NCBI GenBank assembly: GCA_938009905.1
Contig: CALLGK010000120.1
Span: 1-34,658, forward strand
From: an uncultured Acidimicrobiales bacterium
GTDB lineage: Bacteria; Actinomycetota; Acidimicrobiia; Acidimicrobiales; SZUA-35
Length of the DNA: 34,658 bases
Direction: 5' to 3'
The notes under the pieces were generated by a model. The model was not told the DNA's origin, did no database searches, and saw only the letters and a program-made list of their open reading frames with translations. The first letter of the stretch is position 1. Every line of letters begins with the position of its first letter. Positions 613-26,869 of the stretch are shown here, piece by piece. Made by a program: the position numbers and the translations under genes.

Positions 613-794
613 GTGTCCAACGTTGACCAGCAGTCGCTGATTAACCGGGCGATCGAACGAAATCGGGCGAAAATCCGGTCAAGTTCCTCCATTTTTTGGG
701 CAAAAGCTCACTGAAAACGGCAGTTCCTCACTCTGTGTGTGGAGCCAAGCACCTTCGTTCGGTACTGTTTTGGACGCGGGAGGCGTTGCACAAC

Positions 795-10416: not shown

Positions 10417-10492
10417 GCCCGGATAGCTCAGTCGGCAGAGCGTCTCACTCGTAATGAGAAGGTCCCGAGTTCAATTCTCGGTCCGGGCTCCA
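10417..10492 (+). tRNA. tRNA-Thr (anticodon CGT), CCA encoded
   Basis: GCCCGGA acceptor / TCCGGGC; D-loop TAGCTCAGTCGGCAGAGC; anticodon stem TCTCA-CTCGTAA-TGAGA; GGTTCAATTC-type T-loop; 3' TCCA. Confidence 0.95.
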
Positions 10493-12365: not shown

Positions 12366-13073
12366 TCAGTGCGTCTGGACGATCCCGTCAAACACCGGAA
12401 AGTCTCCGATGGAGGCCGGTTCGAAGCGCACGAAACGCTTGCCGAGTCGCCACGTTTCGATCCGCCGAGTGAACACCTCGTAGCCCGCCCGATAGGTGCC
12501 ATGGCTCGCCCCCCGATTTTTTGACTCGGCATAGGCGGTGACGTAGCGCACCCCCGGGGCTGCGTCTGCCTTCGCCGCTTCGGTGAGCACATAGTGGCCC
12601 ATCGCCATGAGCCCGAAGCCTCGAAACTTCGGTGAGACCCACGCACCTTCGCCGATGAGCGTGTCCGGACCAAAGCGGAACAGCGGGCCCCAGTAGTCGC
12701 GCACCTTGTCGGCCTGATAGTGGGGAATGAACCACGACAGGTAGGCCGGCTCGCCATCGCTTGTGAGGGCTACGTAGCCCCCATCGAAGCCTGCCTGCCA
12801 CAGCGCGTGACGCCGTTCGAGCAGCTGCTGATCGCGCGGCTCAAGGCCACGCCGGTCAAATACTCGGGCCGCCAGCTCATCATCGAGCGGAGCTGCCGTG
12901 AGGCGGCCAAGACTCGACGTGGGCACCGGATAGCTCCGGGTGAAGTCGCGCCGTAGGCCAATCGACTCGCTCTGAGAGTTCACCCAGTGGCCAACGTCAG
13001 CCCCAACGGCGGAGAACTCGCCTGCGCGCAGTTGCTGCGCTGTCAACGAAAGACGATCAGCCGCTCGACTCAT
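12366..13073 (-). CDS. GNAT-like acetyltransferase
   Basis: LIGEGAWVSPKFRGFGLMAMGHYVLTEAA and YVTAYAESKNRGASHGTYRAGYEVFTRRIETW (GNAT motif A/B-like). ATG at 13073 preferred over 13112. Confidence 0.55.
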   Translation of the reverse strand: MSRAADRLSLTAQQLRAGEFSAVGADVGHWVNSQSESIGLRRDFTRSYPVPTSSLGRLTAAPLDDELAARVFDRRGLEPRDQQLLERRHALWQAGFDGGYVALTSDGEPAYLSWFIPHYQADKVRDYWGPLFRFGPDTLIGEGAWVSPKFRGFGLMAMGHYVLTEAAKADAAPGVRYVTAYAESKNRGASHGTYRAGYEVFTRRIETWRLGKRFVRFEPASIGDFPVFDGIVQTH

Positions 13074-13172
13074 GACGAAAAACCGTAGCCAGCCCCGCGG
13101 CGATGGCAACAACAGGAAATATGAACTTTTGGACCGGGGTTGGGCTCGTGCCGGTGGTCACCCAACTCTCGG

Positions 13173-13649
13173 CTAGGCGGAAATGTGTGCCTCGAGCTTG
13201 TCGAGCGCCATGCCCCAACCCTGCGCACCTGGTGAATCAGCAGGCACACCGACGTGGGTCATCACCATCTTGGTGCCACCGTCTACCTCGGTGAGTTCAA
13301 CGACAACCTGGGTATTCGACGGCGCTCCTTCCGGCATGCCCATGTCGGCCGGGCTCATGACGTTGCCATCTGCGTCAGCCATGGCCTCGGTGTAGACGAA
13401 CCGCTCGTTCTCGACGATCTCTTCAACCTCACCAACAAACCACATCTGCATAGGTCCGTTTGGTGTCTCCATCTCCATACAGACCTTGCGGGCACCGCCA
13501 ACACGCAGGTCCAGCTCTGACACCGGGATCGTCGCGCCCATGGGCCCGTACCACTGAGCGAAGTGCGCCGGGTCGGTCCACATCTGCCAGACAAGGGATG
13601 GTGGTGCACTCACGGTGCGTTCAATCTGCACGGACTTGAAATCGCTCAT
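13173..13649 (-). CDS. SRPBCC / AHSA1-like protein
   Basis: SVQIERTVSAPPSLVWQMWTDPAHFAQWYGPMGATIPVSELDLRVGG...GWGMALDKLEAHI. Confidence 0.9.
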   Translation of the reverse strand: MSDFKSVQIERTVSAPPSLVWQMWTDPAHFAQWYGPMGATIPVSELDLRVGGARKVCMEMETPNGPMQMWFVGEVEEIVENERFVYTEAMADADGNVMSPADMGMPEGAPSNTQVVVELTEVDGGTKMVMTHVGVPADSPGAQGWGMALDKLEAHISA

Positions 13650-14023
13650 GTTCGCTTGCTCTTTCTGGTTTTCGGTCGTTGCACTTCTTCGAGATAGTCG
13701 GCCATGCGGTCGAAGCGGTCTTCCCAGATCGGTCGGTACTGGTCGGTCCAGTCGGCGACGGCGCGCAACGGCTCTGCATTGATCGAACACGGTCGGTATT
13801 GCGCCCGCTGGCCCTGCGTCACAAGACCAGCCTTCTCGAGCACCTTGATGTGACGTGAGACGGCAGGGAGGGTCATGTCGAACGGCTCAGCAAGCTCGTT
13901 CACACTTGCCTCACCTTCCGCGAGCCGCACCAACATGGCCCGGCGGATGGGGTTTGAAAGCGCAGCAAAGGTGGCGCTCAAGCGATCGTCGGCAAGCTCC
14001 CGGTCGATAACTGAAGCAGGCAT
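13646..14023 (-). CDS. ArsR-family transcriptional regulator
   Basis: LSATFAALSNPIRRAMLVRLAEGEASVNELAEPFDMTLPAVSRHIKVLEKAGLV; 4-bp overlap with the AHSA1 gene. Confidence 0.92.
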   Translation of the reverse strand: MPASVIDRELADDRLSATFAALSNPIRRAMLVRLAEGEASVNELAEPFDMTLPAVSRHIKVLEKAGLVTQGQRAQYRPCSINAEPLRAVADWTDQYRPIWEDRFDRMADYLEEVQRPKTRKSKRT

Positions 14024-14026
14024 GAA

Positions 14027-14062
14027 CTTAACCCTACTGTTAATTAACAACTATGTAAAGTA
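14027..14062. promoter_or_regulatory. Candidate ArsR-family operator
   Basis: ACTTAACCCTACTGTTAA|TTAACAACTATGTAAAGT: 36-bp imperfect palindrome (12/18) with perfect core TGTTAATTAACA at 14039-14050, immediately upstream of the ArsR start. Confidence 0.6.
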
Positions 14063-14088: not shown

Positions 14089-15111
14089 TTAGTCGACGCG
14101 TGCAGCCGCCAGTTGCTCATCGGCGACTCCGGTCAGATAGCGACGCAGCCGAGCAAGGCCACGATCGTGGCTATACAACTTCTCTCGACCGTCAGGCTCC
14201 ATCCGTTCGAGAAGCGCCCGATCTTGCTCGAGCACGTGCCAGTGCCGATCTTCGAGCCGGTTCTTGTAGAGGAACCGCCACACGTCGCGCTGCCATCCGT
14301 CGATCTCGCAGGTACGCCAGAAGAACACAGACGTCGAACCGTTCGCCGCCGGTGTGTACATCCCGATGATGCCGAAGGTCTTCGCCGGACCACCGGACGG
14401 CGGATACGGAATCTCGAGTCTCATCCACATCACGCCGGTGTCACCGAACTCCGTCCAATCGAAGTTCACGCCCGATTGACCGGTCTTGGCGAACACGAAG
14501 CCATCGTCGGTCTCGCTGAGCGCGAACTCTGCGCTCATCTCACCTTCGCCCATCGAGTGCGACTGGCGGTGCAGGAAGGCGCCGTGCATGGGGTCCATCA
14601 CGTTGTCGGCGATGAGGCGCCAATCACCGGCCCACTCGACATAGCAAAGGAAGTTGCTGAAGCGATCTCCGGTGAGCTGTTCTGGCAAGTCAAGAGGCGG
14701 CACATCCTCCAGATGGGGGTCTGCACTCTTGTAGAGAAAGATCACGCCCGCAGCCTCGGTGGCCGGATACACACGTGTCGGTCGGCTTCCTTCAAGATTG
14801 CAGCCAGGGCTTGCTGGCACCTTGGTGACCACTCCGTCGAAGCGAACCTCGACCCAGTGATACGGGCAGCGAAGACGGTCGTCGAGCACGTCGCCCGCTG
14901 ACAGCGGTGCACCGCGGTGCGGGCAGTAGTCCTCGAGCGCTCGAACGGTGCCAGACGAGTCTCGCCAGATCGCGATGCGAGCCCCGAATCGTCGGATCTC
15001 CTTCACCTCGCCCTCAGCCAACAGCGTGGAGGGCAACACGGCGTACCAACGGTTGGCAACACCCTCGGCAACGAGCTCATCAGCGGAGAGGCTTGCGTTT
15101 GTCGCACTCAT
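14089..15111 (-). CDS. Rieske (2Fe-2S) non-haem iron oxygenase alpha subunit
   Basis: CPHRGAPL...CPYHW Rieske ligands; mononuclear-iron motif DNVMDPMHGAFLH. Confidence 0.92.
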   Translation of the reverse strand: MSATNASLSADELVAEGVANRWYAVLPSTLLAEGEVKEIRRFGARIAIWRDSSGTVRALEDYCPHRGAPLSAGDVLDDRLRCPYHWVEVRFDGVVTKVPASPGCNLEGSRPTRVYPATEAAGVIFLYKSADPHLEDVPPLDLPEQLTGDRFSNFLCYVEWAGDWRLIADNVMDPMHGAFLHRQSHSMGEGEMSAEFALSETDDGFVFAKTGQSGVNFDWTEFGDTGVMWMRLEIPYPPSGGPAKTFGIIGMYTPAANGSTSVFFWRTCEIDGWQRDVWRFLYKNRLEDRHWHVLEQDRALLERMEPDGREKLYSHDRGLARLRRYLTGVADEQLAAARVD

Positions 15112-15353
15112 CGGCCCAGCTCCGCCATCAGCGTCGTGAATCGCGCTGCGGTCCACTGTTCGTTGTCGGGCGGCGGAGGGCCATCGGCGTTCAACCGACC
15201 AACGAGTCCTTCGAGATCGTGCACCCCAGCGGCATAGGCCGACTCGATGGCGTCACCCAGCTGGTTCTCGAACTCGGTTGGTGGCGCTGAGCGACTTTGA
15301 TTTGGCTCGAGATACGGAACCTCAGCCCCGGCAGGTGAAGGTGCGGTGGTCAC
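15108..15353 (-). CDS. Small recombinase-like helix-turn-helix domain protein (81 aa)
   Basis: PYLEPNQSRSAPPTEFENQLGDAIESAYAAGVHDLEGLVGRLNADGPPPPDNEQWTAARFTTLMAELGR; GTG start with upstream AGAGGAG; 4-bp overlap with the Rieske gene. Confidence 0.65.
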   Translation of the reverse strand: MTTAPSPAGAEVPYLEPNQSRSAPPTEFENQLGDAIESAYAAGVHDLEGLVGRLNADGPPPPDNEQWTAARFTTLMAELGR

Positions 15354-15393
15354 GGAGAGCTCCTCTGATGTTGAAGGTTCTGAGTGTGAAGGT

Positions 15394-17043
15394 TCATGGC
15401 ACGGGAACCGGTGGTACGAACGGGACGGGCATGGGGCCGAAGGCGTCGCAGTCGACTTCGATGACCGTTGGACCACCGTCGGCGATCGCCTGCTCCAAGA
15501 CCGCATGGGCCTTGTCTGGCGAGTCGAGGCGACGATGCGGCATCGAGAACGCAGATGCCAAGGCGGCGAAGTCTGGTGTGAAGAGGTCAACACCGCTCCG
15601 ACGGCCGATGTGGGCGTCTTGCAGATTGCGAAGCACCCCGTAGCCGCCGTCGTTGAAGATCAGCACAACCACTGGCAGTTGCTCCTGGGCAAGTGTGGCG
15701 AACTCACCGAGATGCACGGCGAGACCGCCATCACCCACCATCAGTGCGGTCGGCACGTCTGACCGAGCCGTTGCCGCACCAATCGCCATGCCGAGACCTT
15801 GCCCGATGCCGCCTCCTCGGGCATTCACGTTGGTCGTCGGATCGAGTACCGGGAGCAGCCGGTTGCCCCACGCCGACGCCGGAATGGTCACGTCTCGAAC
15901 GAGCGGGGCATCGTCTGGCAGTAGGGATCGCATTGCTCGGCACAGCTCGGCATATGGACCGATGTCGGCTTCGAGCTGTTGGCGCACGCTGACGGCGGTG
16001 TCGCTCGCCACGGCGAGCCAGTCGGATCGATCGCGTTCGCTCAGTCGATCGGTCAGTTCGGCGATCGCAACACCAGCCGTGCCAACCAAGCCAACGTCAC
16101 ACGGGTAGGCGCGGCCAATGGCGGCAGGGTCAACGTCGATCTGCACGTGCGTCGGGGGTAGCCGAAGCTTGTAGTGCCGCGTTTCGTTCGACCGGAAGTG
16201 TGTGCCGATCGACAGCAACACATCGGCTTGGTCAAGCAAGTCTTGGCCCCCTGGGCGGGCGGCGAAGTTGCCGATCACCAGAGGGTCGCCCTCGGGGATG
16301 ATGCCTCGACCGGCGTTGCTGGTGACGAGGGGGATGGCGAACCGTCGGCAGAACTCGGCCACGGCTTCTCGAGCTGGCACCGCTCCCCCGCCAGCCCACA
16401 CCACCGGCCGTTCCGCACCATCGAGCAAGGCAACGGCTTGGTCGAGGTCACCGACGATGGCATCGGGCGAACCGTTGCTGTTTGAACGCGGCCCGCTGTC
16501 AGGTTGCACTGCCGCCGCGTACTGAAGGTCAATCGGGATCTCGACGCTGACCGGCCCGGTCGGCGCGGTGAGCGCCTCAGCAACGGCTCGACGAAACACC
16601 GGGCGGATCTGCGTCGGATCCGTGATGGTGTGCTGCGCCTTGGAAACCGCGGCGAGCATGCGATCTTGCGCCTTGGTCTCGTGGATGACACCACGGCCTT
16701 TGCCGAGATAGCCAGCGTCGATGTTGCCGGTGACGTGCAGCACCCGACTTCCGGCCGTGAGCGCCTCGACAAGCGAACCCGCGGCATTGCCCGCGCCGGT
16801 ACCCGTGCTCGTTACGGCGATTCCGAGCGAGTCGGCGACCCTGCTGTAGCCGTCGGCGGCGTTGACGGCAGTCGCCTCGTGACGGACTGCGGTATAGCGG
16901 CCGGCGGCAACAAGGGCATCAACCAGCGGTTGGTTGTGCACGCTCACGATGCCAAACGCGGCCGCAACATCGTGTGCGGCTGCGATCTCGCAAAGAGTTG
17001 CCGGTGCGGCGGGGGGCGCAGCGGGGGACACGGCTTCAGACAT
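15394..17043 (-). CDS. Thiamine pyrophosphate-dependent enzyme (acetolactate-synthase-like superfamily)
   Basis: HEATAVNAADGYSRV; TPP motif GDGGLAVHLGEFATLAQEQLPVVVLIFNDGGYGVLRNLQ. Confidence 0.92.
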   Translation of the reverse strand: MSEAVSPAAPPAAPATLCEIAAAHDVAAAFGIVSVHNQPLVDALVAAGRYTAVRHEATAVNAADGYSRVADSLGIAVTSTGTGAGNAAGSLVEALTAGSRVLHVTGNIDAGYLGKGRGVIHETKAQDRMLAAVSKAQHTITDPTQIRPVFRRAVAEALTAPTGPVSVEIPIDLQYAAAVQPDSGPRSNSNGSPDAIVGDLDQAVALLDGAERPVVWAGGGAVPAREAVAEFCRRFAIPLVTSNAGRGIIPEGDPLVIGNFAARPGGQDLLDQADVLLSIGTHFRSNETRHYKLRLPPTHVQIDVDPAAIGRAYPCDVGLVGTAGVAIAELTDRLSERDRSDWLAVASDTAVSVRQQLEADIGPYAELCRAMRSLLPDDAPLVRDVTIPASAWGNRLLPVLDPTTNVNARGGGIGQGLGMAIGAATARSDVPTALMVGDGGLAVHLGEFATLAQEQLPVVVLIFNDGGYGVLRNLQDAHIGRRSGVDLFTPDFAALASAFSMPHRRLDSPDKAHAVLEQAIADGGPTVIEVDCDAFGPMPVPFVPPVPVP

Positions 17044-17842
17044 AGCGGCCCACTCCACCGGATACGTCGATGGAGGTCCCCGTTACGTAGGAGGCCCGTG
17101 GCGACACCAGCATGGCGGCGACAAACGACACCTCGCGGGCAACCCCGAGCCGTCCGAGCGTGATGCCCCGGTCGGCGGCGAGATCGCCCGACCATTCCTC
17201 CCACGAGCGCTGATCATCGTCGGGGCGCTGGTCGTAGCGTCGACGCCACTGTCCCGTGTCGATCAAGCCCAGCAACACGGAGTTCACTCTGATGCCCTCC
17301 GGCGCGAGATCGACCGACAGCGTTTTTGTCAGGTTCAGTAGCCCAGCTCGGGCCGCGCTCGTTGCGGCGAGGCGAGGCTCGGGCTGACGAGCAAGCACGG
17401 CGTTGATGTTCACCACCGCTCCGGCACCACCCGCCGCAAGGTGAGGACGTGCCGCAGTGAGCGGGTTCAACACCCCGTTGAACTTCAGCTCGAATTCAGA
17501 CATCCACTCGTCGGCGGCCGTCTCATCGAACCGCTTCATCAGCGATTGGCCGGCATTGTTCACCAGACCGTCGATGGCGCCGAATCGGTCGACGGTCGCC
17601 TCAATGAACGACGCGACCGCATCGGCGTCGCGTACGTCGCACCCGTGCACGAGCAATCGGTCTGCCGCATCGCCGTGTCCAGAATCCGACAGCGAAGCAG
17701 TCGAGGCGCGAAGTCGATCAAGATCTCGAGCGCACGCCGCAACGCGTGCCCCGGACAACAACAAGTCTTCGACCAGGGCGCGGCCGACCCCCGAGCTACC
17801 GCCCGTGACCACGATGACTCGATTGTGGAGTTGAAGGTCCAT
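17036..17842 (-). CDS. SDR-family protein with non-canonical active site
   Basis: TGGSSGVGRAL cofactor motif and NNAG; the YxxxK position reads ATSAARAGLLNLTK. Confidence 0.9.
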   Translation of the reverse strand: MDLQLHNRVIVVTGGSSGVGRALVEDLLLSGARVAACARDLDRLRASTASLSDSGHGDAADRLLVHGCDVRDADAVASFIEATVDRFGAIDGLVNNAGQSLMKRFDETAADEWMSEFELKFNGVLNPLTAARPHLAAGGAGAVVNINAVLARQPEPRLAATSAARAGLLNLTKTLSVDLAPEGIRVNSVLLGLIDTGQWRRRYDQRPDDDQRSWEEWSGDLAADRGITLGRLGVAREVSFVAAMLVSPRASYVTGTSIDVSGGVGRYV

Positions 17843-17867
17843 ACCCGTTCCCGTTAGCCCGATTTCG

Positions 17868-18629
17868 TCATGGCATCACGAACCCACCGTCAACCACCTG
17901 CGTGGTTCCGGTGACATACGCGGCATCGTCAGACAGCAGGAAGCGGACAACCCCGGCAACGTCAGCGGGCGTCTGCGGTCGAGACAACGCACGGTTGTCG
18001 GCGTACAGCTGATGACGTTCGGCTGGCACACCTTCGGTCGACTCACCCACGACAATGCCCGGCGCAACCGCGTTGACCGTGATGTCGTGCGGGCCAAGCT
18101 CGCGAGCCATGGCACGAGTGAGGGCGATCACACCACCCTTCGATGCGATGTAGTGACTCAGGCGGGGGCTTCCGTAGAGGGCGGCATCGGAGGCGAGGTT
18201 GACGATGCGACCTTGACCGGCATCGATCATCAACGGGGCCACGTGTTTGGCGACCAGCCAGGTACCGGTGAGATTGACGCCCATGAGGCGATCCCAGGTC
18301 TCTCGGTCGAGTTCCCAGAAGTTGGCCCCGCCCACCGCATCAGCCATCGCTGCGTTGTTCACCACACCCCACGGGGCGGCGGTCAGCCCCGAGAAGAACC
18401 CGGCCACGGACGCCTCGTCGGCCACATCGACCACGTGGGAACGCACGTCGAGCCCGGCGGCGGCGAGTTCGGCCGCTGCGTGCTCAACCCGCTCTCCATC
18501 TACATCGAGGGCGTGAACGACCGCACCGGCCTCCGCGATTGCCTTGGCCATCGCTCGGCCAAGACCTCGACCAGCGCCCGTGATGACGACCGTGCGACCC
18601 GCGAGCGTCTGCGCAGATGCGTCGGTCAC
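17868..18629 (-). CDS. SDR-family oxidoreductase
   Basis: TGAGRGLGRAMAKA; NNAA; HYIASKGGVIALTRAMARELGPHDITVNAVAPG (YxxxK intact). Confidence 0.93.
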   Translation of the reverse strand: MTDASAQTLAGRTVVITGAGRGLGRAMAKAIAEAGAVVHALDVDGERVEHAAAELAAAGLDVRSHVVDVADEASVAGFFSGLTAAPWGVVNNAAMADAVGGANFWELDRETWDRLMGVNLTGTWLVAKHVAPLMIDAGQGRIVNLASDAALYGSPRLSHYIASKGGVIALTRAMARELGPHDITVNAVAPGIVVGESTEGVPAERHQLYADNRALSRPQTPADVAGVVRFLLSDDAAYVTGTTQVVDGGFVMP

Positions 18630-18635
18630 CGATCG

Positions 18636-19142
18636 TCAGTCACGACTGACGCCGTACATCGGCGACGTCTCGGGGTAGGTCGGCAGCTGCGGCTTCCCGA
18701 CGCCGAGCATCACGCAGAAGATCGCATGGCCATCGCCGACGTTCTTGAGGCTGCGGGGCACACCGGGCGGCACGCACATGAAGTCGCGGTAGCCGAGCAC
18801 ACGAGCGGCCGACTTCGTGCCGTCTTCCACGTCGTGGATTCGTAGCTCGACCTCACCCTCGATCACAAAGAAGGCTTCTTCGACATCGTGATGCGTGTGT
18901 TCAGGGCCCTCGCCACCCGGCGGCAGAAACATGTTCGAGAAGGTGAAGTTCTCGGCTTGGATGATGTTGCCGTCTGCCTCGTGTCGACCGGTGCCGCCAG
19001 ATCCCATGTAGCGCATCTGGGCTCGCCCAAACTGTTCGCCGGGCTTCTTCTGCCAAGCGAGGGTGTCCCAATCCTGCTCTCGGCTGTCCTTTGTGGCCAG
19101 GAACGAATCGACCTGAGCCTCGAGTTCATCCTGCGTTGCCAT
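18636..19142 (-). CDS. Cupin-domain protein
   Basis: GPEHTHHDVEEAFFVIEGEVELRIHD...VPPGVPRSLKNVGDGHAIFCVMLG. Confidence 0.9.
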   Translation of the reverse strand: MATQDELEAQVDSFLATKDSREQDWDTLAWQKKPGEQFGRAQMRYMGSGGTGRHEADGNIIQAENFTFSNMFLPPGGEGPEHTHHDVEEAFFVIEGEVELRIHDVEDGTKSAARVLGYRDFMCVPPGVPRSLKNVGDGHAIFCVMLGVGKPQLPTYPETSPMYGVSRD

Positions 19143-19155
19143 GGGGTTCCTCTCG

Positions 19156-19989
19156 TCAGACGTCGTGGGTTGCGGCGAAGAAATCGCCGACCGCTCGATT
19201 GAACGCAGCGGGTTGCTCACGGTTCGCGAGGTGACCGGCGTTTGGGATAGTGACCAGGCTGGCGTTCGGAACCAGGGCCGTCAAAACCTCGGCCTCGCTT
19301 GGCGGGCACACAATGTCGGCTTCGCCGACAACAACGAGGGTTGGCACCTCGATCGTTGGCAGAAGATCGGTGTGGTTGGTGTCAGCCATTGCTGCGGCGG
19401 CCTGGCCGTAGCCGGGCAACCGAATGGCCGCGGCCATCTCCAACGCAACCGCGGCCACAAGATCAGCCGGAGCATCCTGAGACACGAGCCGGGGAGCTCT
19501 CGAGGCCGCGAACGCCTCGTTCCCCTGCGCCGTGAGGGCGTCACCCCGACCCCGCATGACCTCTGCTTTCGATGGATCGACGCCCGAGCCTCGACTGGTG
19601 TCAGCGAGCACGAGCCGACGCACCCGAGCTGGGTGTGTCGCCGCGAGCCGAGCCGCGATCACACCGCCCCACGACACACCAACGAGATCGACCTGCCGGG
19701 CCTCGACCGCATCGAGCATCGCAATCACGTGATCGACGTAGCCGGTGAGCGAGTCGATGTCGGGCACATCGTCTGAGTCGGCGTAGCCGGGAGCGTCCGG
19801 CGCAAGGCACCAGCGCCGCCCGCCTGCATCTGATGCAAAGTGCCGTAGCTGCGCATCGAACGCGACCCGAGACGACCCGATGCCGTGCAGCAGCACGACG
19901 GGAAGTCCGGGTTGACCAATGGGTGGCAACACCGCCTCGCTGACGGCCAACGGTCCGATCCGTCGAAACCCGATTGGGTTCAAGGTCAT
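19156..19989 (-). CDS. Alpha/beta hydrolase
   Basis: VVLLHGIGSSRVAFDAQL; nucleophile elbow VGVSWGGVIAARLA; NAGHLANREQPAAFN. Confidence 0.9.
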   Translation of the reverse strand: MTLNPIGFRRIGPLAVSEAVLPPIGQPGLPVVLLHGIGSSRVAFDAQLRHFASDAGGRRWCLAPDAPGYADSDDVPDIDSLTGYVDHVIAMLDAVEARQVDLVGVSWGGVIAARLAATHPARVRRLVLADTSRGSGVDPSKAEVMRGRGDALTAQGNEAFAASRAPRLVSQDAPADLVAAVALEMAAAIRLPGYGQAAAAMADTNHTDLLPTIEVPTLVVVGEADIVCPPSEAEVLTALVPNASLVTIPNAGHLANREQPAAFNRAVGDFFAATHDV

Positions 19990-20966
19990 GCTGAGTTCGG
20001 CGGGGAAGGCGTCCAACGAGGCGGATGGCAGTTCGGGTCGGGACTTCCCGCGCCGGCGGCCCGAAACTCTGCAGACGGTGGGCCGGCCAGGTGCCACAGA
20101 TCAGACTGGGACGGAATGCGTCGCCAAACTCGCGGGATCCACCCCGGTTCATTGATCTGTTGCACATCGGCGGTCAGTTCAGGGACGAACCCCGCAGGGT
20201 CGCCGTAATAGGCAAAGGCATTGTTCCCTGGTCCGTGGCGACCGATACCCCACAGGGGTTCGACACCAGCCGACTTCATGCGTCCCACCGACTGGAGGAA
20301 GTGGTCGACAGAGTCCAGCTCGTAGGCAACGTGGTTGACCGATGCGTGCGCCGCCTGATTGAAGGCGATGGTGTGGTGATCGGTCCCGTTCCGCAGGAAC
20401 ACCATCTGATGTTCTGACCAGTCGGACACGGCGAACCCGAGCACATCGACGTAGAAGCCGCAGAGCAGATCGATGTCGACCGTGTTGAGCACGACGTGGG
20501 TGATGGCGAGTGGCAGAGGAGCTCCTGGCGGAACCGGATCAGCCGTCTCCATCTCGGTGACGACCCGCAGCACTCGACCCTCCGGGTCAGCTGCGTCGAA
20601 CCCGTAGCCACCGCCGAGTTCATCGAGCGATGCGGGCTCACTGCGGATCTCGACACCAGCCGAAGACCAACGGGCATGGAGGGCATCGACCGCTCCACGC
20701 GACGAGGCCCCGAACGCAATGTGGCCCAGCCCAACATGATCACCAGCCAAGAACCGAACAATGTGGTGGGGAGCGTGGGTGAGCGATCCTCGCCCCCGAA
20801 AGGCGATCGACGAGTCTGGTTCGCCAGTGTCAACGGGTGTGAGGCCCCAGTGGGAGTAGAACTCGCCGACCTCAGCAAGTGGCGTCGTGGTGGTGAGCGC
20901 AACGTGCTGGATGCGCCCGAGTCGTGGCTCGCTTCCCGCACCCCCGACCGGCAAGACCGAGCTCAT
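19986..20966 (-). CDS. Extradiol-type (VOC superfamily) dioxygenase
   Basis: Two VOC modules; putative metal ligands in ITHVVLNT, VNHVAYEL and GFVPELTAD; 4-bp overlaps with both neighbours. Confidence 0.85.
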   Translation of the reverse strand: MSSVLPVGGAGSEPRLGRIQHVALTTTTPLAEVGEFYSHWGLTPVDTGEPDSSIAFRGRGSLTHAPHHIVRFLAGDHVGLGHIAFGASSRGAVDALHARWSSAGVEIRSEPASLDELGGGYGFDAADPEGRVLRVVTEMETADPVPPGAPLPLAITHVVLNTVDIDLLCGFYVDVLGFAVSDWSEHQMVFLRNGTDHHTIAFNQAAHASVNHVAYELDSVDHFLQSVGRMKSAGVEPLWGIGRHGPGNNAFAYYGDPAGFVPELTADVQQINEPGWIPRVWRRIPSQSDLWHLAGPPSAEFRAAGAGSPDPNCHPPRWTPSPPNSA

Positions 20967-23314
20967 CGTGAAACCTCCGAGTCGCGAAGCATGTCGAGGA
21001 TGCGGCCCGGTGACAGCGGTCCAGACAACACCGACACGCCTTCGGGGCGAAGGGCATCTTCAACCGCGTTGGCGATCGCCGCCGGCGGACCAACGGCGCC
21101 GCCCTCGCCCAAGCCCTTGACTCCGAGCGGATTGGTGGGGCTTGGGCACACGATCTCATCCATTCTGATCTCGGGCACCATCTCGCTGATGGGCATGAGG
21201 TAGTCGGAGAATGTCGAGGTGATCGGCTGACCATTCTCGTCGTAGCGCAGATGTTCGCTCATGATTCCGCCGATGCCTTGCCCCACGCCACCGATCACCT
21301 GGGCGTCGGCAACGACTGGGTTCACGATCGTGCCGGCTTCGTGCACAACGACGTAGTCGAGGATCTCAACCCGGCCCGTTGCGGTGTCGACCTCGACGGT
21401 GACGGCGTGGGCCCCACTGGCGGTCGCGTAATTCGGCGGCTGAAAGTACGACGTCTCGCCGAGCCCATCGCTGCCGGAGCCACCCGCCAGCTTCGGCACG
21501 GAGCGAATCAGGTCGGCCAGAGTCAGCTCTACAGACGGCGTGCCCGTCACCGAGATGATCCCCTGCTCAATCGTGAGGTCTGCTGCGTTGGCTTCGAGCA
21601 CGCCGGCCGCGGCCTCAAGAATTCGTTGGCGAACGAGCTCGCCTGCTTGTGCGGTTGCGTTGCCTGCCGTTACAAGCGCTCGACTAGCGATGGTGCCAAC
21701 CCCATAGGGAATCGAGGCCGTGTCGCCTGCGAGCACATCGATGTCATCAAAGGCGACACCCATCGTGTCGGCCAAGATCTGTGCGAACACCGTGCGATGC
21801 CCTTGCCCCTGTGACGGTGCTCCTGTGTAGAGCCGCACTCGACCGGACGGCATCACTTCGACCCTGGCCCCTTCGAACGGGCCGAGCCCTGTCATCTCGA
21901 GGTAGAGGGCGAACCCAACGCCGATGCGACGATCGGGCTCGGCGGCCTGGCGGGCCCGCACGGCGGGAACATCGATCATCTCGACGGCTCGGTCAAGCAT
22001 CGCCGGGTAGTCGCCGGAGTCGTATTCTTGCGGCACGCCGCGCCGGTCGAGCAATCCCGTTTCGTACGGCATTTGCTCTGAGGTGATCAGATTGCGACGG
22101 CGAAGCTCTGATGGCTCGATGCCAAGCTCAACGGCGAGGCGATCCATGGCCCGTTCCATGGCAAAGGTCGCCTCTGGTCGTCCGGCGCCGCGGTAGGGCG
22201 ATGTGAAGGTGGTGTTGGTGAGCACCCCCGTTGCTTCGAGATCTGCATTCGCCACTTGATACGGCCCAATGAGGTGGCAGAGGGCGTTGTATGGCACCAC
22301 AAGGCCAACCATGTTGCGGGCGCCGAGGTTCACGACGATGTGATCCTTGACCGCCACAAGCGTGCCATCGGCATCGGCGCCAAGGGTGATGTGGTGCACC
22401 TGCTCACGAGCATGGGCGTCTGCGGTCAGGTTCTCGAAACGATCGGCGATCCACCGGACAGGCCGGCCCAGGTCGTGCGCTGCAAAGGGCACGAGCAGCT
22501 CCTCAACAACGAGGATGCCCTTCTGCCCGAAGCCTCCACCGACGTCGACGGACTGCACCCGCACGTCGTCGACCGGCAGACCAATGGCTCCAGCGACATG
22601 GTCGCGGACTCGGTGGGGAGTCTGGGTAGTCGACCAAATCGTCAAGCTGCCGGTGAACGGATCTTGTTGGGCAACAAGGCCTCGGGTCTCGATCGGAGCG
22701 CACACGTACCGCTGGGTCGAGAACGTTTCGGTGATCACTGCGGCAGCTGAGGCGAGCGCAGCGTCGGTATCGCCCTTGCCGTGGCGGACATGCACGCCGA
22801 TGTTGTCGTCTTCGCCAAGAAGCACGAGTGGAGCGTCCTCGGCCAGCGCCGCTTCGACATCGATCACCGCAGGAAGCAGCTCGTACGCGACATCAATGAC
22901 TTCGATCGCGTCCTCAGCGAGATAGCGCGTCTCGGCAACGACCATCGCGACGGGTTGCCCCACGTAGTTCACTTCATCGGTGGCCAGAATCGGGGCCGGC
23001 TGCAGCTTGTTGATGGGATCGAGCGCGGCGATGCCCGGAGGCACCCGGAGTTCCTCGGCGTTGAGCAACGGCTTGATGCGATCAACGACTGATGCCCCGT
23101 CGTAGACGGCGATCACGCCAGGCATCGCCTTCGCGGCGGAGATGTCGATCGACGTGATGCGAGCGTGAGCCTCGGTGGATCGGAGGAAGGCAACCTCGAG
23201 GGCGTCTGGAACATGAAGATCGTCGGTGTAGCGGCCAGCGCCACGCAGGAGCCGATCATCTTCGACTCGGGGAACGGATTGGCCAATGAGCCAGTCGGTT
23301 GGTTCCGTGCTCAT
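20963..23314 (-). CDS. Molybdopterin-binding large subunit, xanthine dehydrogenase / form II CoxL family
   Basis: IGQSVPRVEDDRLLRGAGRYTDDL; VQSVDVGGGFGQKG; active-site loop PYRGAGRPEATFAMERAMD (form II-like, not AYxCSFR). Confidence 0.94.
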   Translation of the reverse strand: MSTEPTDWLIGQSVPRVEDDRLLRGAGRYTDDLHVPDALEVAFLRSTEAHARITSIDISAAKAMPGVIAVYDGASVVDRIKPLLNAEELRVPPGIAALDPINKLQPAPILATDEVNYVGQPVAMVVAETRYLAEDAIEVIDVAYELLPAVIDVEAALAEDAPLVLLGEDDNIGVHVRHGKGDTDAALASAAAVITETFSTQRYVCAPIETRGLVAQQDPFTGSLTIWSTTQTPHRVRDHVAGAIGLPVDDVRVQSVDVGGGFGQKGILVVEELLVPFAAHDLGRPVRWIADRFENLTADAHAREQVHHITLGADADGTLVAVKDHIVVNLGARNMVGLVVPYNALCHLIGPYQVANADLEATGVLTNTTFTSPYRGAGRPEATFAMERAMDRLAVELGIEPSELRRRNLITSEQMPYETGLLDRRGVPQEYDSGDYPAMLDRAVEMIDVPAVRARQAAEPDRRIGVGFALYLEMTGLGPFEGARVEVMPSGRVRLYTGAPSQGQGHRTVFAQILADTMGVAFDDIDVLAGDTASIPYGVGTIASRALVTAGNATAQAGELVRQRILEAAAGVLEANAADLTIEQGIISVTGTPSVELTLADLIRSVPKLAGGSGSDGLGETSYFQPPNYATASGAHAVTVEVDTATGRVEILDYVVVHEAGTIVNPVVADAQVIGGVGQGIGGIMSEHLRYDENGQPITSTFSDYLMPISEMVPEIRMDEIVCPSPTNPLGVKGLGEGGAVGPPAAIANAVEDALRPEGVSVLSGPLSPGRILDMLRDSEVSR

Positions 23315-23883
23315 TCGCTCACCTCACCGGACGTCGAGTCGAGCGAGACGGGGACATCAACCGGCAGGCCGAGCGCCTGGCGAGCCGCCTTGCGGATGTT
23401 CACGTATCCGGTGCACCGGCAGTACGAACTGTCGACACAGTCTTGAACCTCGGCCTCGGTTGGTGCCTGACCGGTCGCTTGCGTTTGCTCCTTGAGCGAG
23501 GTCACCGACATCACAAACCCTGGCGTGCAGAAGCCGCATTGCAGCCCGTGCTGATCGGCGAACGCCTGCTGAACGGCGGTCAGCTCGTCATCAGGACCCG
23601 CCAACCCTTCGATCGTGCGGATGTCGCGGCCGTCTACCTGGGCGGCCAGCAACAGGCACGACCTGACCGGTTGCCCGTCGAGTTGAATCGTGCACGCACC
23701 ACATGCTCCCTGCTCACAACCGACGTGGGTTCCCGTGAGGCGAAGGCGGTGGCGAAGAAAGTCGGTGAGCAGCAGACGTGACTCGACCTCTGCCGTGACC
23801 GCTTCACCGTTGACCGTGAACGTGATTGTGTGCCGGGCCGTTGGTTCTGCAGCCGGTGGCCCAGATGGATCGAGGTTGCTCAC
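23311..23883 (-). CDS. 2Fe-2S small subunit (CoxS-like)
   Basis: GCEQGACGACTIQLDGQPVRSCLLLA and CGFCTPGFVMS...CRCTGYVNI: two plant/XDH-type Fe-S motifs. Confidence 0.95.
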   Translation of the reverse strand: MSNLDPSGPPAAEPTARHTITFTVNGEAVTAEVESRLLLTDFLRHRLRLTGTHVGCEQGACGACTIQLDGQPVRSCLLLAAQVDGRDIRTIEGLAGPDDELTAVQQAFADQHGLQCGFCTPGFVMSVTSLKEQTQATGQAPTEAEVQDCVDSSYCRCTGYVNIRKAARQALGLPVDVPVSLDSTSGEVSE

Positions 23884-24755
23884 GTCGTGCCTCCTCTGGC
23901 CTCAGCCATCGTCCATGCCTCCGCCACCGACTCGGTGGCGAGGAGCGTTGCGAACTGTCGACGAGCATCAGCAGAGGCGTGCACGTCATCGTTGGGATCG
24001 ATGGACGCATCGAGTTGTGCAAGCACGGCCTCGGTGAGCGTCGGTGTCGAAGCCCCGTTGATTGCCGCTTCGACCACTGCCGAGCGCTGCGCACCGGGCC
24101 CAAGTCCAAAGAGAACAACGACCGCATCGCTGGCGACTCCGCCCTCGACAACCAAGCGTGTCACCACCCCAGCCGTCGCAAAGTCGCCGGTTCTGGTGGC
24201 GAACTCACGAATGGCCCAGCCGGTTCCGGGTCCGAGCGTCGGGAAGTGGGCACTCGTGATGAGCTCACCCGGGTCGAGCGACGTCATGAAGGGACCGGCA
24301 AACAGATCCTCGATCGCGACAACTCGTTGACCGCTCGGCCCTGCGACGGTGACCGATGCGTCGAGCGCCATCGCAACTGCTGGCAACTCGGCCAGCGGAT
24401 CGTTGTGCGCAAGGCTGCCGCAGAGTGTCCCCCGATTTCGGATCTGGGGATGGCCGATGAGCCCAATGCCTTCAGCCAGAAGTGGCCAGCCGCCGACGAC
24501 ATCTGCGTTGCCTGCCACCTCGGCCTGCGAAACGGCGGCCCCTACCGTGAGACCGGCGCCGTCAACGGTGATCGTGTTGAGCGACTCAATCCGGCCAATG
24601 TCGACCACGAGTTCTGGCGACGCAAGACGAAGGTTGAGCAGCGGCATGAGCGACTGGCCCCCGGCGATGACCCTGGCATCGGCATCACCGTTCAGGAGTT
24701 CGACCGCATGGTCAACCGTCGCCGCTGCCACGTAGTCGAAGGGTGGCGGCTTCAT
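23880..24755 (-). CDS. FAD-binding medium subunit (CoxM-like)
   Basis: FDYVAAATVDHAVELLNGDADARVIAGGQSLMPLLNLRLASPELVVDI; RNRGTLCGSLAHNDPLAELPAVAMAL. Confidence 0.95.
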   Translation of the reverse strand: MKPPPFDYVAAATVDHAVELLNGDADARVIAGGQSLMPLLNLRLASPELVVDIGRIESLNTITVDGAGLTVGAAVSQAEVAGNADVVGGWPLLAEGIGLIGHPQIRNRGTLCGSLAHNDPLAELPAVAMALDASVTVAGPSGQRVVAIEDLFAGPFMTSLDPGELITSAHFPTLGPGTGWAIREFATRTGDFATAGVVTRLVVEGGVASDAVVVLFGLGPGAQRSAVVEAAINGASTPTLTEAVLAQLDASIDPNDDVHASADARRQFATLLATESVAEAWTMAEARGGTT

Positions 24756-24809
24756 GAGGCCACGCTATGTCTCCGCCGTTCAGAGCACCAAAGAGCGTGG
24801 CGGCGACCG

Positions 24810-25544
24810 TTACGGCGCAACCTCATTGATGAGACTGGCAACCCAGTCGGGCTGTTCGACCTGCACCGAATGTCCCCCGCCCGCCGCCATCCTGGGATTG
24901 TCGACGTAGGCCGAGATCTCGTCACGACTCACCATGGGATCGTCGCTGCCCGCGCCCAGAATCACCGTCGCACCGGTTGGCGACACGTTTGAGAGTTGGG
25001 CGCCAGACATGAGGGCCGCCATGTCGACCGGGTTCTGGGCGAACGTGGCCGGATCCTGCGCCAAGCGCCAGCCTTCCTCGGTTTCGACCACCGAGTGCTC
25101 CACCGCCGGGTGATCAGCATCGACAAGGCCATCTAGGCCAGCCACTCGCAGGAACCGCGTGACGGCTTCGTCTCGGGACTCGAAAAAGCGAACGCCACGC
25201 CCGGCCATCTTGGCCATGCCAGCCACGTCGTCGCTGGTCCAGGTCATCTTGATGCCGATGCCGATGACGGCCCGCACGCTCGGCCGGTAGAACCCAGACG
25301 CTAAGCAGAGCGCCACCACTCCCCCGAGTGAGTGGCCAACAACCACGGCGTCTTCACCCGAATCGCATTGCGCTGAGACGGCCGCGGCCAATCCGCCCAA
25401 GCTGTAGTCGCCAGACCATGCCGACTGCCCGTGGCCGGCCAAGTCAATGGCTCGCACATCACCGGGCCAATCGAGTTGTCGTTCGACGTCGGCCCAGACC
25501 CCAGAGGTCGCGCCCATGCCATGCAGGAGTAACAGCGTGGTCAT
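24810..25544 (-). CDS. Alpha/beta hydrolase
   Basis: LLLLHGMGATSGVWADV; VVGHSLGGVVALCLA; terminal GGHSVQVEQP. Confidence 0.9.
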   Translation of the reverse strand: MTTLLLLHGMGATSGVWADVERQLDWPGDVRAIDLAGHGQSAWSGDYSLGGLAAAVSAQCDSGEDAVVVGHSLGGVVALCLASGFYRPSVRAVIGIGIKMTWTSDDVAGMAKMAGRGVRFFESRDEAVTRFLRVAGLDGLVDADHPAVEHSVVETEEGWRLAQDPATFAQNPVDMAALMSGAQLSNVSPTGATVILGAGSDDPMVSRDEISAYVDNPRMAAGGGHSVQVEQPDWVASLINEVAP

Positions 25545-26869
25545 GAGACACCCTCCTGGGTTTGCCAGCGAACGGGTAACGACTTGAGACCCTGTTGGAA
25601 GTTGGACTGCAAGCGGACGGGCTCGCCCGCCAGCTCGAGCTGGCCGAGTTGGCTGTTCAGCTCGCCGAGCATCGAGCTCACCTGACGCCTGGCCAAGTGG
25701 GCACCAAGGCAGAAGTGCGGGCCGAAGCCAAACGAGACGTGATCGTTGCTCCCCCGGCTCAAATCAAGCCGGTGAGGGTCGGCAAACACCTCGGGGTCAC
25801 GGTTGGCAGCGACGTGGTACACCGCCACCTTGTCACCAGCCGTGATCGCAACACCGCCGAGCTCAACGTCGATCGTGGCCGTCCGGCGAAAGTGGGTCAC
25901 CGGTGGCCAGAAGCGGAGCAGCTCTTCAACCGCCGACGGCAGCAAGCCAGGATCACTCAGCAGCCGCTCGTATTCGCCCGGGTGCTCGATCAGCGACAAG
26001 ACCGCTCCTGGGATGCCGTTTCGAAGCGTCTCGTTGCCAGCCACAGCAAAGAGAAAGAACAGCGTTTCGAACTCGTCGTTCGACACCCTCGTGCCATCAA
26101 GCTCGGCTTGCAGGAGCAGCGACATGATGTCGCCCCCGGGCTCACGTCGCTTCATCTCAGCAAGCTCGTGGGCGTAGGCATACATATCGGCGAGCCCGGC
26201 TCGGCTCCTCGGATCGGGCAACGTGCCATCGGCGGCAGGCACCGGGCGAACGGCAAGCGCCCGCCGCGCCATGTCGGTGCCCTGAGCAACATCGAAGGTG
26301 GCCGAGCCTGCGTAGTCGACGTCTTGGTAGCCGATCACCCGGTTCGACCAGTCGTACAGCAGCCTTCGGTCCTCCTCTGGTACGCCAAGCACGGCTGCGA
26401 GGACGGCAACCGGAAGATCGGCGACGACGTCGGTCACGAGGTCGCAGCTCCCACGAGGAGCCACGGCCGCAACCAGCGATCTCGCTCGCTCTGCGATCTC
26501 GGTGTCAAGCAACGCAATGGCTCGAGGCACAAACGCCTTCGCCAACAGGCCCCGCAGACGGTTGTGCTCCGGTGGATCTTGGTTGAGCATCATCCGCTGC
26601 GCGAACGCCAAGTCGCTCGGCGGCGGCGTGCGCAACTGCGTGCCTCCAGCATGGCTCGAGAACGTCGCCGCGTCTTTCAGCACCCGCTTGGTCTCGGCAT
26701 GACCGAACACTGCCCAGTAGCCGGGCCCCTCAGCCGACCCGTGCAGCGCTGGCTCGGGCACCCACACCACCGTGCCGGACTGTCGCAATCGATCGATGGC
26801 GTCGTGAGGTGCGCCGCGGACATAGGTCGCCGAGTCGTAGAGGGCGAGGACGTCGGCATCGTTGGGCAC
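25541..26869 (-). CDS. Cytochrome P450
   Basis: I-helix AVAGNETLRNG; haem loop FGFGPHFCLGAHLARRQ; 4-bp overlap with downstream hydrolase. Confidence 0.96.
   Translation of the reverse strand: MPNDADVLALYDSATYVRGAPHDAIDRLRQSGTVVWVPEPALHGSAEGPGYWAVFGHAETKRVLKDAATFSSHAGGTQLRTPPPSDLAFAQRMMLNQDPPEHNRLRGLLAKAFVPRAIALLDTEIAERARSLVAAVAPRGSCDLVTDVVADLPVAVLAAVLGVPEEDRRLLYDWSNRVIGYQDVDYAGSATFDVAQGTDMARRALAVRPVPAADGTLPDPRSRAGLADMYAYAHELAEMKRREPGGDIMSLLLQAELDGTRVSNDEFETLFFLFAVAGNETLRNGIPGAVLSLIEHPGEYERLLSDPGLLPSAVEELLRFWPPVTHFRRTATIDVELGGVAITAGDKVAVYHVAANRDPEVFADPHRLDLSRGSNDHVSFGFGPHFCLGAHLARRQVSSMLGELNSQLGQLELAGEPVRLQSNFQQGLKSLPVRWQTQEGVS

Follow-up and report, generated by a model that had tools for sequence, protein, structure and literature searches.

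A thirteen-gene array in an uncultured Acidimicrobiales bacterium contains an eleven-gene variant of a widespread catabolic operon that may degrade kynurenate

What compound is broken down by a run of thirteen co-directional genes in an uncultured Acidimicrobiales bacterium, and do these genes serve one pathway? The window analyzed here is the whole 34,658-nucleotide stretch CALLGK010000120.1, a single contig (G000:C120) of an assembly that is 85% complete. In it, genes for a cytochrome P450, an α/β hydrolase (hydrolase 1), a three-subunit molybdenum (Mo) hydroxylase (CoxMSL), a VOC-fold ring-cleavage dioxygenase, a second hydrolase (hydrolase 2), a cupin, two short-chain dehydrogenases/reductases (SDR 1 and SDR 2), a thiamine pyrophosphate (TPP)-dependent enzyme, a small HTH_62 protein and a Rieske oxygenase follow one another. 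We find that eleven of these genes, from CoxM to the Rieske gene, constitute a variant of a catabolic operon that is widely conserved and, it appears, has never been named. On a narrow balance of probability, they represent an actinobacterial form of a widespread operon for the degradation of kynurenate (4-hydroxyquinoline-2-carboxylate) or a close relative. From the gene content, its conservation, the enzyme classes and the intact active sites, all of which are seen directly, we infer the substrate and the individual steps set out below.

Relatives' loci were collected by a genome scan with an alignment of the Rieske protein alone, which returned at least 595 stretches, 586 of them encoding a relative. 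Eighty loci were kept and their neighbourhoods mapped from codon-scored gene calls; counts per locus cover the 64 that span at least 19 kb. Eight genes, encoding the VOC dioxygenase, hydrolase 2, the cupin, SDR 1, SDR 2, the TPP enzyme, HTH_62 and the Rieske oxygenase, were taken as the core, and all eight lie together in the window cluster, as they do in 31 of the 64 loci (at least seven in 46). TPP, VOC and HTH_62 genes are each found in 60 of the 64; HTH_62 stands immediately 5' of the Rieske gene in 60/64, and likewise in the window, and SDR 2 directly precedes the TPP gene in 52/64. The Rieske and TPP proteins match nearly identical sets of plasmids and chromids, including those of Acinetobacter, Klebsiella, Burkholderia, Caballeronia, Novosphingobium and Streptomyces, and the operon also occurs in Pseudomonas, Variovorax and Rhodococcus, the hosts coming from soil, plant, animal and marine habitats. 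That the array is peculiar to its source genome is not supported, as the eight core genes it contains belong to an operon present in hundreds of species. No published function for this operon was found, although most subscription journals and preprints lay outside our coverage and an earlier assignment is possible; as far as the literature found goes, the exact combination is indeed absent from described pathways.

Annotated relatives carry, in addition to HTH_62, Rieske, SDR, VOC, cupin, hydrolase, a further SDR and the TPP enzyme, genes for a Rieske-type ferredoxin, an FAD reductase, a transporter, an aspartate dehydrogenase and an aldehyde dehydrogenase. Across the 64 loci the usual partners are a VanB-type reductase (53), aldehyde dehydrogenase (51), aspartate dehydrogenase (50), RidA (30) and a flavin monooxygenase (18). 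The operons of Acinetobacter baumannii (L009) and Klebsiella pneumoniae (L012, between speB and tkt) share orthologues of all eight core genes with the window, the proteins being 28–50% identical and the cupins 46%. SDR 1 is 46–50% identical to the operon SDR termed SDRa, whose gene lies directly 3' of the Rieske gene in L009, L011, L012 and L013. The A. baumannii and K. pneumoniae operons encode a Rieske-type ferredoxin, FAD reductase, aspartate dehydrogenase, aldehyde dehydrogenase and transporter, whereas the window has none of these and carries CoxMSL instead. Genes of the A. baumannii operon have appeared in expression studies that give no pathway: A1S_0956-0958 (aspartate dehydrogenase, aldehyde dehydrogenase, TPP enzyme) are 2.2–2.4-fold up with mucin (PMC5757984), and A1S_0945, A1S_0946 and A1S_0956 are expressed in biofilm cells only (PMC3758355). 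Similar to the window, five actinobacterial operons (Rhodococcus wratislaviensis L119, Streptomyces L010 and L129, Jatrophihabitans L122 and Bailinhaonella L123) hold all eight core genes, in the order VOC-(aspartate dehydrogenase)-hydrolase-cupin-SDR1-SDR2-TPP-...-HTH_62-Rieske in L010, L119, L122 and L129. They differ from it by a VanB-type reductase gene 5' of HTH_62 (5/5), an aldehyde dehydrogenase (4/5), a MarR regulator, the absence of CoxMSL and a Rieske protein of another clade.

The reading of all thirteen genes as a single pathway, in contrast, fails for the P450 and hydrolase 1. These two are paired in 6/6 genomes examined, and in four relatives (G001, G004, G005 and G016) the pair lies apart from the operon; in G004, contig C60 holds the pair, whereas contig C4 holds CoxMSL, VOC, aspartate dehydrogenase, hydrolase 2, cupin, SDR 1, SDR 2, TPP, HTH_62 and Rieske genes. 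Since the pair is found elsewhere in relatives, the catabolic unit is reduced to the eleven genes from CoxM to Rieske, and the P450 is probably outside the pathway. The earlier note had counted three oxygen-inserting enzyme types; with the P450 assigned to a separate pair, it leaves this list, on which the Rieske oxygenase, the Mo hydroxylase and the ring-cleavage dioxygenase stay. The same observation bears on whether the cluster degrades a steroid or branched lipid, with a CYP125/124-like P450 acting first. The closest solved structures to the P450 are a reconstructed CYP125 and then CYP124/CYP125, and the Rieske protein has a low-level similarity to KshA, but the P450 pair is separable from the operon and Rieske orthologues sit in Acinetobacter, Klebsiella and Pseudomonas operons together with TPP enzyme, aspartate dehydrogenase and RidA. 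With the pair untied from the operon, we rejected the steroid route, which we consider highly improbable. The pair is kept as a two-gene unit at other sites (L175, L176, L177 and L178), and the P450 copies of G004 and G016 each contain one TGA within the matched frame.

That the genes carry out a stepwise oxidative breakdown of an aromatic or N-heteroaromatic compound, as originally proposed, is supported by the active sites of two of the enzymes. The VOC protein aligns with homoprotocatechuate 2,3-dioxygenase, and also with catechol 2,3-dioxygenases, and its invariant H157, H198, H212, H244, Y253 and E263 correspond to all six type I extradiol residues, namely the iron ligands (H157, H212 and E263) and the second sphere (H198, H244 and Y253). 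In the Rieske protein, which has no beta subunit, the Cys/His residues, the DxxH..H motif and D297 are invariant, and both the cluster and the 2-His-1-carboxylate residues are intact. SDR 2 scores 347.9 bits against NF005468 (cut-off 266) and the TPP enzyme 627.7 bits against NF005470 (cut-off 495), two models that name no function. A naphthalene-type meta pathway was discarded, as the cluster has no pyruvate-removing hydratase-aldolase and a TPP enzyme instead, and homarine, another lead, found no support.

A similar list of enzyme classes (P450, TPP enzyme, Mo hydroxylase, Rieske oxygenase, extradiol dioxygenase and cupin) is combined in the lum cluster of Nocardioides simplex (PMC12746152), which would make the window a cluster for the degradation of lumichrome (vitamin B2). 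The protein families, however, differ at nearly every step: in lum, the Rieske oxygenase is of the alpha/beta kind, the TPP enzyme is split (20+23 kDa), the Mo enzyme is one chain of 140 kDa and the P450 is self-sufficient (81 kDa), with pyrimidine-ring hydrolases alongside (PMC12746152), whereas the window encodes a VanA_C Rieske protein without beta subunit, a 549-residue TPP enzyme, a three-chain Mo enzyme, a 442-residue P450 that is a passenger, and no amidohydrolase. Given these differences, membership in lum is ruled out and lumichrome is a most unlikely substrate.

Kynurenic acid, a waste product of tryptophan, is produced by microbes as well as by animals and plants and is active at mammalian receptors; its breakdown by bacteria was worked out in the 1960s. 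The classical quinoline (kynurenate) pathway of Pseudomonas is said to go back to Taniuchi and Hayaishi in 1963. Its cleavage product is 5-(3-carboxy-3-oxopropenyl)-dihydroxypicolinate, which is followed by the 3-carboxy-3-oxopropyl, 2-formylethyl and 2-carboxyethyl dihydroxypicolinates, that is by reduction, decarboxylation and oxidation. Such a route requires a Rieske system, followed by a dihydrodiol dehydrogenase, an extradiol enzyme and a reductase, with a TPP-type 2-oxo acid decarboxylase and an aldehyde oxidizer for the last two conversions. To our knowledge, the activities EC 1.14.99.2, EC 1.3.1.18 and EC 1.13.11.10 have been on record since the 1960s with no genes. The operon encodes Rieske, SDR, extradiol, TPP and aldehyde-oxidizing candidates for all of these classes, a match at the level of enzyme class, the pathway's own genes not having been found assigned; CoxMSL lies outside the classical description. 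From kynurenate, pseudomonads and Pseudomonas extracts form glutamate, alanine and organic acids (PMC11354673), and 7,8-dihydroxykynurenate is made enzymatically from kynurenate, a route suggested in Pseudomonas fluorescens (PMC5610271).

Mapped onto the operon, the Rieske oxygenase would dihydroxylate the benzene ring at C7/C8 (step 1), and SDR 1 would convert the dihydrodiol into 7,8-dihydroxykynurenate (step 2). Extradiol cleavage by the VOC enzyme at C8–C8a would yield a dihydroxypicolinate with a CH=CH-CO-COOH side chain (step 3), the double bond of which SDR 2 would reduce (step 4). The resulting 2-oxo acid would be decarboxylated to an aldehyde by the TPP enzyme (step 5), and the aldehyde oxidized to the propionate by an aldehyde dehydrogenase in most genomes and by CoxMSL in the window (step 6). 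Finally, the cupin and hydrolase 2 would open the pyridine ring, giving a five-carbon acid (towards glutamate) and iminosuccinate (step 7). In relatives, aspartate dehydrogenase or RidA would then convert the iminosuccinate to aspartate or oxaloacetate. Departure of the remaining N-C(COOH)=CH-C unit as iminosuccinate, which aspartate dehydrogenase takes as its substrate and RidA plausibly could, would explain why relatives carry both genes. Among the readings considered, none but kynurenate accounts jointly for aspartate dehydrogenase, RidA, the TPP enzyme and aldehyde dehydrogenase.

A nitrogen in the ring is indicated by the aspartate dehydrogenase and RidA of relatives together with their 6-hydroxynicotinate 3-monooxygenase-like enzyme, the FAD monooxygenase of the Pseudomonas form being closest to 6-hydroxynicotinate 3-monooxygenase (2.6e-79). 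These same genes speak for a nitrogen heterocycle without saying which, and the enzyme classes set the chemistry in outline only; the same operon and logic of Rieske/SDR/extradiol cleavage and TPP shortening could serve another bicyclic or N-heteroaromatic natural substrate (e.g. another quinoline, quinoxaline or indole carboxylate), an alternative that we take seriously but to which we give rather low credence. The spread of the operon over soil, plant, animal and marine bacteria, however, suggests a common natural compound, and few compounds but kynurenate pair a 7,8-dihydroxylatable ring with a built-in N-C(COOH)=CH-C unit. A plasmid-borne operon of Vibrio nigripulchritudo (L043:8705-18280) has no Rieske, HTH_62 or SDRa gene, and a gene for this FAD monooxygenase adjoins it. 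Such an arrangement would follow if a compound that already bears one hydroxyl group, such as xanthurenate, leads to the same catechol. We infer that this catechol may be reached either from an unhydroxylated ring, by Rieske oxygenase and SDR, or from a phenol, by a flavin enzyme, as with kynurenate and xanthurenate. The frame of the flavin monooxygenase in L043 appears split.

Several points weigh against kynurenate. Step 7 is not accounted for enzyme by enzyme, and the scheme is weakest where the cupin and hydrolase 2 would open the ring. The window cluster contains no aldehyde dehydrogenase, aspartate dehydrogenase or Rieske reductase gene, and no homologue of the VanB-type reductase was found in searches of the genus assemblies (76–91% complete). 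CoxL, in turn, is at least as similar to heterocycle/CO-type hydroxylases as to aldehyde oxidases. No genes for making kynurenate were found in the operon flanks; tryptophan dioxygenase, encoded in 13 of 23 operon genomes, is not beside the operon. Within the literature coverage given above, no report tying these genes to kynurenate was found. Neither did a Pfam survey of 108 flanking genes bring up a recurrent family that reveals the substrate. The three genes missing from the window were not taken as defining for the operon, because 10–14 of the 64 other loci also have no aspartate dehydrogenase or aldehyde dehydrogenase in the stretch, and owing to the incomplete assemblies the absence of aldehyde dehydrogenase and reductase from the genus is not proven. 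For aspartate dehydrogenase the genus searches gave only distant matches, yet G004 of the same genus has one.

In the window's genus, CoxMSL probably stands in for the missing aldehyde dehydrogenase. The genus searches gave no orthologue of the usual aldehyde dehydrogenase (best matches 37–40%, generic), and CoxMSL is kept with the operon across the family. CoxM shows this linkage in G002 and G004, and CoxL adjoins VOC in G000, G002, G004 and G005, a divergent MarR-like gene sitting between CoxL and VOC in G005, which belongs to a different genus. An aerobic CO dehydrogenase was rejected, as the AYxCSFR loop is absent, with PYRGAGR in its place, and bit scores stay under the curated cut-offs; CoxL indeed scores under every NCBIfam cut-off. 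Its closest matches in the PDB, 6-hydroxypseudooxynicotine dehydrogenase (1e-140) and quinoline 2-oxidoreductase (5.6e-135), would also suit an enzyme that hydroxylates a heterocycle ahead of the common pathway, e.g. quinaldate to kynurenate, a role compatible with kynurenate degradation. In line with such a role, Caballeronia, Hydrogenophaga, Ramlibacter and two Variovorax carry another Mo hydroxylase with the operon, and both Variovorax retain the aldehyde dehydrogenase. This proteobacterial enzyme is, however, of another kind, closest to 4-hydroxybenzoyl-CoA reductase, and in the window's genus CoxMSL lies inside the operon with no orthologous aldehyde dehydrogenase found. We favour replacement of the aldehyde dehydrogenase and regard heterocycle hydroxylation, a close second, as a credible possibility that falls clearly below even. 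The 4-hydroxybenzoyl-CoA-reductase-like Mo hydroxylase is encoded with a CoxG-type protein beside the operon in these Burkholderiales (L047:14856-19311, L068, L084, L090 and L094), the Caballeronia being Caballeronia NK8. As this enzyme differs from CoxMSL, Mo enzymes have joined the operon more than once.

Phylogenetic trees place the components of the cluster differently. The Rieske tree joins the genus to sequences from Beta-, Gamma- and Alphaproteobacteria (99/97) and separates it from the five actinobacterial sequences, whereas in the TPP tree it groups with the actinobacterial operons (100/100). Quick trees likewise put SDR 1, SDR 2 and the cupin with actinobacterial operons (support 1.0), and VOC weakly so. 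Judged by these trees, the cluster is a mosaic of a proteobacterial-type Rieske gene and an actinobacterial remainder, and the Rieske gene was probably exchanged between phyla, perhaps together with HTH_62. The HTH_62 and Rieske genes overlap by 4 bp (15108/15111), and among 61 relatives HTH_62 exceeds its cut-off solely in the four operon genomes; the protein may be an oxygenase accessory rather than a recombinase-like DNA-binding protein. Just 5' of HTH_62, the Pseudomonas-type operon encodes a conserved protein of about 105 amino acids with no Pfam match (L051:9441-9758 and 36 other loci).

In its broadest form, our proposal is that the operon family is the missing genetic basis of bacterial kynurenate degradation, from soil actinobacteria to A. 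baumannii and K. pneumoniae, and that the version of the window's genus was re-engineered, with a Mo enzyme for the aldehyde dehydrogenase and a proteobacterial-type Rieske oxygenase on an actinobacterial core; we put this forward tentatively, with confidence somewhat short of even. If true, hundreds of genomes, two clinical species among them, become annotatable at once. Kynurenate-eating bacteria could alter the level of kynurenic acid in gut, soil or infection sites. Even with another substrate, a catabolic operon so widely conserved yet unannotated merits assignment.

Regarding the layout of the locus, the thirteen genes are intact and lie on the minus strand in the order and with the domain types described in the earlier note (Table 1). 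Domain types were assigned by Pfam, and NCBIfam models with their cut-offs were also applied. The 4-bp overlaps given for six junctions are all exact, and the remaining gaps, described as mostly within about 55 nt, measure 54, 13, 6, 25, −8 and 40 nt. Three boundaries had to be revised, as the starts of hydrolase 2, the cupin and the HTH-like gene had been drawn too far upstream: the likely starts are 19989 (277 amino acids), 19142 (168 amino acids) and 15353 (81 amino acids, AGGAG upstream), respectively. The TPP gene starts at 17043, with an 8-nt overlap with SDR 2. Upstream of the P450 lie nhaA, topA, tmk and holB, the end of holB being 67 nt away. Synteny with G002, a second species of the genus, extends over the whole block, from nhaA-topA-tmk-holB through ArsR-AHSA1, with cluster proteins 78–97% identical between G000 and G002; since synteny is kept, the gene block is not a chance assembly.

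Table 1. Genes of the array and its downstream neighbours, in window coordinates (conserved residue columns for hydrolase 2 taken over 71 operon copies)
Feature	Position	Strand	Basis
Cytochrome P450, 442 aa, adjoining passenger	25541..26869	-	PF00067
α/β hydrolase 1, 244 aa, accompanies P450	24810..25544	-	PF12697
CoxM-type FAD subunit of Mo hydroxylase	23880..24755	-	PF00941, PF03450
CoxS-type 2Fe-2S subunit	23311..23883	-	PF01799, PF00111
CoxL-type molybdopterin subunit, proposed aldehyde (or heterocycle) oxidase	20963..23314	-	PF02738, PF20256, PF01315
VOC-fold type I extradiol ring-cleavage dioxygenase, 326 aa	19986..20966	-	PF00903
α/β hydrolase 2, 277 aa	19156..19989	-	PF00561; Ser106/Asp225/His253 conserved
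Cupin, 168 aa, HxH + Glu motif	18636..19142	-	PF07883; conserved H82, H84, E88/E89
SDR 1, proposed cis-dihydrodiol dehydrogenase	17868..18629	-	PF13561
SDR 2, proposed reductase of ring-cleavage product	17036..17842	-	NCBIfam NF005468
TPP-dependent enzyme, 549 aa, proposed 2-oxo acid decarboxylase	15394..17043	-	PF02776, PF00205, PF02775
HTH_62 small protein, 81 aa, Rieske gene partner	15108..15353	-	PF20552
Rieske oxygenase, VanA_C/KshA type, 340 aa, proposed ring dioxygenase	14089..15111	-	PF00355, PF19112
ArsR-type regulator, directly downstream of Rieske gene	13646..14023	-	sequence reading; conserved in G002
AHSA1/SRPBCC protein, after ArsR gene, co-directional	13173..13648	-	PF08327; conserved in G002

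A palindrome-like sequence, TTGTTAATTAACAG, precedes the ArsR-AHSA1 genes (window 13173-14060). Two open reading frames of the window, at 696-3029 (777 amino acids) and 12366-13112 (248 amino acids), have no Pfam match, and a tRNA-Thr (CGT) gene lies on the plus strand at 10417-10492.

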